DNA of 64,000 bases from assembly GCA_014163555.1 (NCBI GenBank), contig JACJGO010000006.1, positions 1-64,000 on the forward strand, given 5' to 3'. The notes below the pieces were generated by a model that searched no databases, was not told the origin of the DNA, and saw nothing but the letters and a program-made list of their open reading frames with translations. Both the position numbers and the translations under genes were made by a program. Shown piece after piece: positions 26,094 to 42,060 of this stretch (the first letter of the stretch is position 1; each line of letters begins with the position of its first letter). This stretch comes from Flavisolibacter longurius. GTDB lineage: Bacteria > Bacteroidota > Bacteroidia > Chitinophagales > Chitinophagaceae.

Positions 26094-26120
26094 GCCCGGA
26101 GCGCAAAGCAGTTTGTGAAT

Positions 26121-26175
26121 GGTGAGTGGTCAGTGGTGAGTAACGTTTGCGTTCTTTCACCGCTGACCACTCACC
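26121..26175. repeat. GTGAGTGG-type inverted word array
   Basis: The left arm ggtgagtggtcagtggtgag pairs with the right arm ctttcaccgctgaccactcacc around a short central loop, then runs into gttttt. It starts 28 bp after the stop codon of the receptor gene, so it may also terminate transcription. Confidence 0.75.
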
Positions 26176-34675: not shown

Positions 34676-34725
34676 TAAGCGGTCAATGGTGAAGGGAAGA
34701 AATAAACTCACCAATGACCACTTAC
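34676..34725. repeat. GTGAGTGG-type inverted word array after lptB
   Basis: The left arm GTAAGCGGTCAATGGTGA and right arm TCACCAATGACCACTTAC pair with two mismatches. The words begin 5 bp after the lptB stop codon (ggtgagtag at 34668). Confidence 0.75.
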
Positions 34726-35868: not shown

Positions 35869-37755
35869 ATGAAAATTTATTTGGCTCAGCAAAATTATCA
35901 CATTGGCAACTTTGAAGCGAATACAGAAAAAATTATAGAAGGAATTAACAAGGCCAAGGCCGAAGGCGCCGACCTGGTGCTGTTTTCGGAGCTTTGTATT
36001 TGTGGGTATCCTCCCCGTGATTTCCTGGAGTTTGATGATTTCATAGCCCAGTGTTACGAAGCCATCAACAAAGTAAAAGCCCATGCCGATACCATTGGTG
36101 TGCTCATAGGCAGCCCGGCCCGCAATCGCCGCAAGGAAGGCAAAGAGTTGTTCAATGCTGCGTTTTTCCTGTACGAAGGCGAAGTGAAGACGGAAATTCA
36201 CAAAACCCTGTTGCCTACCTACGATGTCTTTGATGAGAACCGGTACTTTGAGCCTGCTTTCGAATGGAAGTGCATCGAATTCAAAGGGGCAAAACTGGCC
36301 GTTACCATTTGTGAAGACATCTGGAACCTGGGCGACAACCCGCTTTATCGCCTTACCCCCATGGAAGTACTCATCAAAGAAGGCCCCGATGTGATGCTCA
36401 ACCTTTCGGCTTCTCCCTACAATTATGCACAGGATACGGTTCGCAACAGTATCGTAAAGGCGCATACGGAAAAATACCGGATTCCGATGCTCTATTGTAA
36501 CAACGTGGGGTCGCAAACCGAGATTGTTTTTGATGGCGGTAGCCTGGTGTACGATGCCGAAGGCAACAAGGTGAAAGAGCTGAAATATTTTGAAGAAGAT
36601 TACTTTTTGTATGAAGCCCCCTTGCCCGCCAAGGGGAGTGCCCCCTCAATCCCCCAGGGGGGACTTAGCTCGACACAAGGCAAGCCTTTGCAGGATTCCG
36701 GTGCTGCTGTAGAAACATCATTATCGGAAAACAATACGGCGGAAAAAATTCTGCAGCAGGAACTGCCCGGAGATAAAAATGTATCGCCGGAAAGCAGTGC
36801 GCTGCAACCGGGCCAATTCTCCGCCTTAGGCGGACAGGGGGGCCGGACTTACTATTATTCTGCTGCCGATGTGGGCAAGGGCTCCGATATCATTGCCTAC
36901 CTCACCGACGACAAAAATATCAGCGAAATCCACCGGGCCCTGATCCTGGGAATTCGTGACTATTTCTTCAAAATGGGTTTTAAAAAGGCAACGCTGGGTG
37001 CCAGCGGTGGCATCGACAGTGCCGTGGTGCAGGCACTGGCCGTGGAAGCCCTGGGAAAAGAAGCGGTGCATGTGCTCCTCATGCCGTCGGAGTTTTCATC
37101 GGGTCATTCGGTGAGTGATGCAGAGCAACTGAGCAAGAACCTCGATAACCGTTATGATGTCATTGCCATCAAAGACATTTATGATACGTTCCTTACAAAG
37201 CTTCATCCCATCTTTGGCGACTTGCCCTTTAGCGTAGCCGAAGAAAACATTCAAAGCCGGGTACGGGGTAACCTGCTGATGGCCGTGGCCAATAAGTTTG
37301 GCTACATCCTGTTGAACACATCCAACAAAAGTGAACTGGCTACCGGTTACGGCACCCTTTATGGCGATATGGCCGGAGGCTTAGGTGTGCTGGGAGATCT
37401 GTACAAAATGCAGGTGTATGCGCTGGCGAGATACATCAACCGCAATAGTGAGATCATTCCCGAAAATATTATCAACAAGGCGCCTTCGGCTGAACTGCGG
37501 CCGGGGCAAAAGGACAGTGACAGCCTGCCGGAATATGGTGTCCTCGACCGTGTGCTGTACAACTATATCGAATTGCGCCAGGGACCGAAAGAGATTATTG
37601 CCGAAGGCTACGATCCGGCGCTGGTGACTCGCATTCTTCGCCTGGTAAATATGAACGAATACAAGCGGGCCCAGTTCTGCCCCATTATCCGTGTCAGCAG
37701 CAAGGCCTTTGGTGTGGGAAGGCGCCTGCCGATTGTAGCAAAGTACCTGAGCTAG
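35869..37755 (+). CDS. nadE: Glutamine-dependent NAD+ synthetase with in-frame insert
   Basis: This 628-residue enzyme makes NAD+ from nicotinate adenine dinucleotide. Residues 1-245 form the nitrilase-type glutaminase: Glu in LVLFSELCICGYPP, Lys in HKTLLPTYDVFDENRYF, Cys in TICEDIWNLGD. The C-terminal part is the synthetase (GASGGIDSAVVQALA, and NKSELATGYGTLYGDMAGGL). It is about 75 residues longer than related two-domain enzymes. The extra segment, residues 250-325, coincides with palindromic repeat DNA at 36616-36843 and lies between the two domains, so it probably forms a tolerated linker. Divergent from gldB, with 5 bp between starts. Confidence 0.93.
   Translation: MKIYLAQQNYHIGNFEANTEKIIEGINKAKAEGADLVLFSELCICGYPPRDFLEFDDFIAQCYEAINKVKAHADTIGVLIGSPARNRRKEGKELFNAAFFLYEGEVKTEIHKTLLPTYDVFDENRYFEPAFEWKCIEFKGAKLAVTICEDIWNLGDNPLYRLTPMEVLIKEGPDVMLNLSASPYNYAQDTVRNSIVKAHTEKYRIPMLYCNNVGSQTEIVFDGGSLVYDAEGNKVKELKYFEEDYFLYEAPLPAKGSAPSIPQGGLSSTQGKPLQDSGAAVETSLSENNTAEKILQQELPGDKNVSPESSALQPGQFSALGGQGGRTYYYSAADVGKGSDIIAYLTDDKNISEIHRALILGIRDYFFKMGFKKATLGASGGIDSAVVQALAVEALGKEAVHVLLMPSEFSSGHSVSDAEQLSKNLDNRYDVIAIKDIYDTFLTKLHPIFGDLPFSVAEENIQSRVRGNLLMAVANKFGYILLNTSNKSELATGYGTLYGDMAGGLGVLGDLYKMQVYALARYINRNSEIIPENIINKAPSAELRPGQKDSDSLPEYGVLDRVLYNYIELRQGPKEIIAEGYDPALVTRILRLVNMNEYKRAQFCPIIRVSSKAFGVGRRLPIVAKYLS
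36616..36843 (+). mobile_element. Palindromic element inserted in frame in nadE
   Basis: The segment is 228 bp (76 codons). The left end is GCCCCCTTGCCCGCCAAGGG; the right end, complemented, reads GCCCCCCTGTCCGCCTAAGG, so the ends are imperfect inverted repeats of about 25 bp. Each end is also a small hairpin (CCCCTTG/CAAGGGG and TCCGCC-TTA-GGCGGA). The insert encodes a Gly/Ser/Pro/Gln-rich stretch (for example SAPSIPQGGLSSTQGKP). Comparison with the normal NadE length supports insertion; the exact boundaries are approximate. Confidence 0.7.
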
Positions 37756-37757
37756 AC

Positions 37758-37819
37758 CGTGAGTGGTGAATGGTGAGTAAAGAGCGACCTAAACTCACCA
37801 CTGACCACTCACCACTCAC
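37758..37819. repeat. GTGAGTGG-type inverted word array after nadE
   Basis: The left arm gtgagtggtgaatggtgagt (37759-37778) pairs with actcaccactgaccactcac and accactcac further on (37793-37819). The array starts 3 bp after the nadE stop codon. Confidence 0.8.
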
Positions 37820-41991: not shown

Positions 41992-42060
41992 AGGCTCCGT
42001 GGGTGGTGAATTGTGTGTTAGACCACTTCGGGCTGAAAGAGTTCTTCACGTAAAAGCAAT

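Follow-up and report, generated by a model that had tools for sequence, protein, structure and literature searches.

In the genome of Flavisolibacter longurius (G000, 5.66 Mb), the gene for glutamine-dependent NAD+ synthetase, nadE, lies on contig C54, within the 64,000-nt stretch of that contig analysed here (the window). The gene is a single open reading frame of 628 aa, which runs without interruption through a segment described in a sequence-only reading of this DNA as an in-frame insert of 228 bp. Both the coordinates and the frame of that description are right (gene offset 747, frame 0), and the frame does stay open, the only stop in the 628-codon ORF being the terminal one. Pfam identifies a CN_hydrolase domain at residues 5-247 and an NAD_synthase domain at residues 357-602, and the linker between them, where the insert is found, has no Pfam match. 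In the predicted structure, the low-confidence stretch of the insert given in Table 1 is the longest of its kind; shorter stretches with pLDDT below 50 occur at residues 116-129, 485-504 and 596-628, so that the insert is not the only low-confidence region of the protein.

Table 1. Features of nadE and its insert, in window coordinates.
Feature	Position	Strand	Basis
nadE	35869..37755	+	ORF reading and Pfam
In-frame insert, 228 nt; residues 257-325 with pLDDT <50	36616..36843	+	Frame check, predicted structure
Outer left palindrome GCCCCCTTGCCCGCCAAGGGG	36616..36636	+	Hairpin and inverted-repeat reading
Second left palindrome GCCCCCTCAATCCCCCAGGGGGGAC; missing from G014	36640..36664	+	Hairpin reading, alignment with relatives
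Insert interior; homologous to the G014 and G008 nadE linkers; no DUF559 match	36665..36807	+	Alignment, Pfam
Right end: subterminal CCGGGCCAAT, hairpin 36820-36834, terminal GGGGGGC	36808..36845	+	Sequence reading

The ends of the insert are imperfect inverted repeats that also form hairpins, as originally proposed. The arms at 36616-36635 and 36824-36843 are 80% complementary across 20 nt, hairpins can be drawn at 36618-36636 and 36650-36663 in addition to the one at the right end, and the inverted match between the 5'-half and the 3'-half of the linker has p 0.002 against 1000 codon shuffles. The best single hairpin is not significant against codon shuffles (p 0.074). At the left end the hairpin stands, and what had been taken for a single palindrome is in fact two, with a spacing of 24 nt. 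At the right end, 30-34 nt recur with 87-88% identity at two other places in the same genome, C56:9441 (L162) and C16:36603 (L163). No second copy of the whole 228-bp segment was found in the genome, and a search with a narrow palindrome pattern matched nadE itself and nothing else. The Pfam search of this NadE gave no match to the DUF559 profile (PF04480), which becomes relevant below. Separately, the window contains 7 matches to a GTGAGTGGTGA-type repeat, some of them overlapping, where 0.01 would be expected; the repeat lies at 37759-37819 (inverted, directly past the nadE stop), 26115-26141, 34706-34725 and 41999-42018.

The linker is expanded in 8 and short in 10 of the 18 genomes of the genus (G000 included), so uninterrupted relatives do exist. 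It had been supposed that the protein is longer than its family by about the size of the insert. The protein is indeed lengthened; the linker has 102 residues compared to 40 in the short-linker species, a difference of 62 and not 76. The expanded linkers fall into three groups, namely G000, G014, G008, G006 and G003; G001 and G013; and G005 on its own. The first group has homologous interiors (143/204 nt between G000 and G008), with ends that vary between species. The interior sequence VETSLSENNTAEKILQQELPG is common to nadE of G000, G008 and G014, the last being the closest relative of G000 in the set, and because the interior is also present in these two species, the segment predates F. longurius G000. 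A nadE tree was calculated with the linker left out, using 16 of the 18 genus genomes and 14 rows from outside the genus; G011 (L019) and G002 (L037) were dropped as a wrong or broken ORF, and L034 (G029) was omitted, needlessly, from alignment A2. To explain the expanded state, 3 changes are required on this tree, and well-supported branches force at least 2 of them. All 14 outside rows have the short linker, and therefore repeated gain of the expanded linker looks likelier than loss, although long linkers are also known from genera that are not on the tree (see below).

Against codon shuffles, the inverted ends of the expanded linkers are significant in G000 (p 0.002), G008 (0.001), G003 (0.001) and G005 (0.013), and not in G014 (0.057), G001 (0.098), G006 (0.23) or G013 (0.79); the hairpin of G001 has p 0.010. 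In genera outside the nadE tree there are long linkers of their own kind, at L044, L052, L058, L073, L081 and L105. The last five of these loci have an expansion of a different kind from that in the genus, with a common V.PL(Y/F).E..PG.S-like motif.

The nadE segment is thus not one clean insertion peculiar to G000. The idea that the 228 bp were copied here once and recently, with full-length sisters elsewhere, is not supported, there being no second full copy in the genome, although related ends do occur in frame in other genes. Conservation of the segment as a linker in relatives had been named as an observation that would speak against an insertion; it is half seen, the nearest species having retained the interior.

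The pattern CCCCCN{0,10}GGGGG has 59 matches per strand in G000 compared to 0 in the reversed control. This count includes overlapping versions, and the 50 matches listed amount to 39 distinct sites, a few of which resemble ordinary terminator stems. The palindromes comprise an intergenic class, acctaagttCCCCCACCGGGGGacaggggg, and copies within long ORFs, several of which are inverted pairs. Hosts with in-frame palindromes, identified using Pfam, are the E1 alpha/beta subunits of a 2-oxoacid dehydrogenase, tryptophan 2,3-dioxygenase, MetH, an Lhr-type helicase, a methylmalonyl-CoA-mutase-type fusion, a restriction-type helicase, and DUF2480 and DUF5522 proteins. At 101/116 nt, the MetH insert of G000 matches the E1 insert of G014, and therefore a short form has evidently passed between unrelated genes.

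Between genes of G000, GCCCCCTGTCCCCCGGTGGGGGAACTTAGGTC-like palindromes also occur as inverted pairs, with about 260-340 nt separating the two, at C9:29906-30180 (L141), C24:33759-34054 (L149) and C56:170602-170940 (L161), and the interiors of the C9 and C24 pairs have AAGTGTGCGACGCAAC(A/G)GATGCT in common, in opposite orientation. Single palindromes occur at L162, L163 and L146 (C21:279940); among these, one is near the N-terminus of a small ORF that is PaaB-like by reading, and others are C-terminal in ABC-transporter-like (by reading) and DUF2480 ORFs. Two further copies, L140 (C8:74699) and L159 (C55:52260), are outside confirmed genes, and the near identity of their inner flanks over about 50 nt suggests that they spread recently.

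The ends of the nadE inserts were compared to this wider set by means of a nucleotide profile built from 15 non-nadE ends of G000, for which the best of 600 shuffled genes gave E 5.6. The profile matches both ends of the G008 nadE insert, on opposite strands (E 3.9e-6 and 2.9e-4), both ends in G001 (E 8.3e-6 and 0.019), nadE at L044 (E 1.4e-4), and the left end in G000, where the match covers the second left palindrome and its inner flank (36640-36697) on the minus strand (E 0.0063). There was no match to the right end in G000 (E 13), nor to G003 (E 1.7) or G014 (E 28). In G003, the nadE ends are nevertheless identical, over 35/35 and 34/34 nt, to an end of the DUF559 element that this genome has in an M23-peptidase gene. 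A direct comparison of G008 nadE with the E1 insert of G000 gives 49/56 nt, with a score of 77 where the best shuffle reaches 30; the same comparison for G000 nadE is marginal (score 31 against 30). Taken at the sequence level, these matches indicate that the nadE insert ends belong to a dispersed family of ends.

Some members of this family enclose a nuclease. G000 has 4 matches to DUF559, two of which are between palindromic ends within host ORFs (the dioxygenase and the DUF5522 protein), and the nuclease between the ends in the dioxygenase is complete. DUF559 matches are present in 76 of 147 genomes of the family Chitinophagaceae, and the copies studied were 61 DUF559 nucleases from 31 of its genera, occupying 14 recurrent sites in host genes. 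In-frame hosts include LeuRS (two sites), MetH (two sites), AroC, MetRS, CinA, adenine deaminase, an IcmF-type mutase, IspG and M23-peptidase genes; in an ArgB-type kinase, HisA and others the nuclease is close to the N-terminus. Pfam was run on 18 host representatives, the remaining hosts being named from a reading of the flanks, and the host domains found to be split by DUF559 are Trp_dioxygenase, Met_synt_B12, Chorismate_synt, tRNA-synt_1g and S-methyl_trans. The LeuRS genes of G029 (L231) and G161 (L251) each have two DUF559 elements, at two sites. In four genera (L237, L241, L250 and L258), DUF559 is by the N-terminus of an ArgB-like amino-acid-kinase ORF, preceded by KENMFYG or KENMYYG.

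Inverted flanks with p<=0.01 (200 block shuffles each) were found for 40 of 64 DUF559 copies embedded in ORFs of 340 aa or more, a few of which are ordinary C-terminal domains, and for 6 of 7 free-standing copies; 24 of the 64 lack a clear inverted flank. This test left out copies whose flanks were shorter than 150 nt or that had N or duplicated cores. When up to 3 mismatches are allowed, the canonical end CCTCACCCCNNNCCCCTCTCCNNNGGAGAGGGG is matched 20 times in 8 genomes that were picked for holding DUF559 elements, and 0 times in the control, which speaks against a high-copy dispersed repeat in other genera. Seven of the 8 exact matches are within about 100 nt of DUF559, including both ends of the G004 LeuRS element; the remaining exact match (in G028) and all 12 inexact ones (1-3 mismatches) are away from listed DUF559 matches.

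A quick tree of the 61 domains (120 columns, many forks unresolved), from which hosts met only once such as HisA, GHMP kinase, nucleotidyltransferase and Lhr were excluded, requires 18 changes when grouped by site, compared to a shuffled mean of 41.8, with 0 of 200 shuffles as low; grouping by genus requires 47. The tree thus groups by site, and therefore copies at the same site in differing genera tend to be related. Such clustering fits homing into the same site, and would also be compatible with vertical descent accompanied by loss. Seven alignment columns (E, W, Q, D, D, H and N) are identical in 61/61 copies. Among the same-site pairs listed, dN/dS is 0.07-0.23 for the closest (DUF5522, MetRS, MetH and one LeuRS pair) and rises to about 0.4-0.5 in distant LeuRS pairs, for which dS is high. 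By sequence the domain matches 3hrl (E 2.5e-21) and, weakly, the 'mobile intron protein' 3r3p (E 0.0048). The AlphaFold model of the dioxygenase is poor for the host (mean pLDDT 61), and the DUF559 part alone was used for superposition, giving TM scores, normalised by target, of 0.92 for 3hrl, 0.81 for I-Bth0305I and 0.54 for Vsr. The predicted structure therefore points to an EDxHD/Vsr-like catalytic fold, related to the homing endonuclease I-Bth0305I.

Empty sites were sought with a chimeric query across the 18 genomes, in which a missing insert appears as split, adjacent matches. Among the matches listed, the insert is present at the dioxygenase site of G000 and G008 and missing from it in 15 genomes, the site not being seen in one (G004), and the MetH site is occupied in three (G000, G014 and, by the DUF559 form, G012), empty in 14 and not seen in one (G017). 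MetH is the only case with full and short forms at one site, the full form being that of G012, where the frame is disturbed and there are 11 N. Junctions were read for MetH in G000, G014, G012, G008, G003 and G013 (the anchors were not found in G006), and for the dioxygenase in G000, G008, G014, G003, G013 and G006. No nadE with DUF559 was seen, ORFs reaching at most 670 aa in one set of relatives and no more than 632 aa in the 73 loci parsed out of 80 named ones, so a nuclease-bearing ancestor at the nadE site is one that we infer.

We consider it probable (roughly 0.6) that the segment in nadE belongs to a family of unspliced, translated, homing-like elements of the Chitinophagaceae, as a short member that has no nuclease and is partly decayed. 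In-frame copies in unrelated genes, orthologues with empty sites, inverted ends and nadE ends shared with other copies are all direct observations, as are a conserved nuclease and clustering by insertion site. The full element would consist of a DUF559 (EDxHD/Vsr-like) endonuclease frame between two inverted palindromic ends, open from end to end and landing in a loop or domain linker. With the frame open throughout, the host protein can still be made, the element forming an additional domain that is not spliced out or, where it is short, a disordered loop, and splicing is unnecessary. Most likely, the nuclease would cut the empty allele and repair would copy the element in, as in homing; its role in mobility is thus a presumed one. 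The short forms may have moved in trans, riding along with the nuclease, or may be deletion products. The palindromic ends would be translated as flexible linkers, and it may be in hairpin form that they are recognised, presumably by the nuclease and not by a RAYT transposase. The insert probably remains in the mature protein.

The main rival to this reading, though one that we regard as unlikely, gives the work to a RAYT (Y1) transposase: REP/REPIN-like palindromes would have repeatedly hit a tolerant nadE linker, with DUF559 as separate cargo or guest of the same ends. There are Y1_Tnp genes in 14 of the 18 genus genomes, including 4 in G000, similar palindromes are intergenic too in G000, and near matches to the canonical end occur apart from DUF559. 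The available text of PMC3733652 describes REPs and REP dimers (GTAG/CGTC classes) inside ORFs of several species, including those of tRNA synthetases, and palindromes and palindrome pairs within ORFs are common to both systems. The ends described here, however, flank DUF559 and are without the constant GTAG/CGTC tag by which the same text defines REPs; GTAG adjoins the palindrome in 3 of the 15 model ends, which could be counted in favour of a REP, and does not do so in nadE. All 4 Y1_Tnp genes of G000 have other hairpins nearby, none of the nadE-end class, and so no cognate RAYT flanked by the same palindrome was found in this genome (the flanks examined were these 4, together with RAYTs at 3 loci of relatives). 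G005 has an expanded linker and yet no Y1_Tnp match, and the canonical end is uncommon, with its 20 matches in 8 genomes. One Y1_Tnp gene of G000 (L225, C9:41029) is between mirrored hairpins of its own, resembling a REPtron.

An ordinary fast-evolving, low-complexity linker with palindromes arising by chance or slippage would account for an interior that is common to close species and predicted to be disordered, for the unimpressive single-hairpin score, and for the long linkers of another kind in other genera. We nevertheless think this very improbable, given the excess of pattern matches in G000 over its control, the existence of empty orthologues, the inverted ends at p 0.001-0.002 in three species, and above all the identical or near-identical ends in unrelated genes, which largely contradict this reading. 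Least probable of all is removal of the element, either as an intein after translation or as an intron after transcription. A nuclease in frame within conserved genes is typical of inteins, but none of 27 proteins scanned contained a Hint/intein family (E up to 1e-3, or up to 1e-8), HN[CST] follows DUF559 within 60 aa in only 1 of 61 copies, and there were 0 Rfam matches at the gathering score in 8 loci. Short forms of about 40-50 aa occur, and the frame is kept open. On the lack of a Hint domain, a regular splice motif and an Rfam match, both intein and group I/II intron readings were rejected.

The homing-like element family that we favour has several known counterparts. According to the available text of PMC3943268, homing endonucleases are housed in introns, inteins or free-standing frames. 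The DUF559 form resembles I-Bth0305I and mobile introns in its nuclease fold and same-site recurrence, and differs from them in that no intron family was found here and the nuclease is read as a continuous part of its host's frame. It resembles inteins with a homing endonuclease in being translated in frame inside housekeeping proteins, and differs in having neither a splicing domain nor a regular splice motif. Rickettsia palindromic elements (RPEs), with which the sequence-only reading had compared the insert, are about 150 bp long and are found in frame in unrelated genes, some of whose proteins are expressed in vivo, as far as the available portions of PMC10969869 and PMC3733652 go; R. conorii has 44 such insertions (PMC10969869, likewise in part). 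The comparison by description alone is apt, in that the G000 element is also in frame in several unrelated genes of one genome and uninterrupted orthologues of its hosts exist; what it missed is that the end family here includes a DUF559 nuclease form. The phylum differs, and no nuclease-bearing form is mentioned for RPEs in those portions of PMC10969869 and PMC3733652. To our knowledge, what moves RPEs has not been established.

Protein-coding selfish DNA is already familiar from Rickettsia and from REPs within genes, and on its own the nadE insert is a variant on known ground. The nuclease form could go beyond that; in the open-licence literature, DUF559 was not found described as an element that lies in frame and is not spliced. 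We put forward tentatively, as a proposition with somewhat less than an even chance of being right, that these elements represent a class of selfish element that homes into coding genes without splicing, made up of a nuclease with palindromic, linker-coding ends, which essential enzymes (LeuRS, MetRS, MetH, AroC and others) then carry permanently as an added domain and from which nuclease-less coding derivatives such as the nadE insert arise. As one bacterial family provides a candidate nuclease, numerous copies in long and short forms, and alleles without the element, both the movement of the element and its tolerance by enzymes become testable. If the reading of the DUF559 elements is true, it would account for the odd fusions of DUF559 with housekeeping enzymes.
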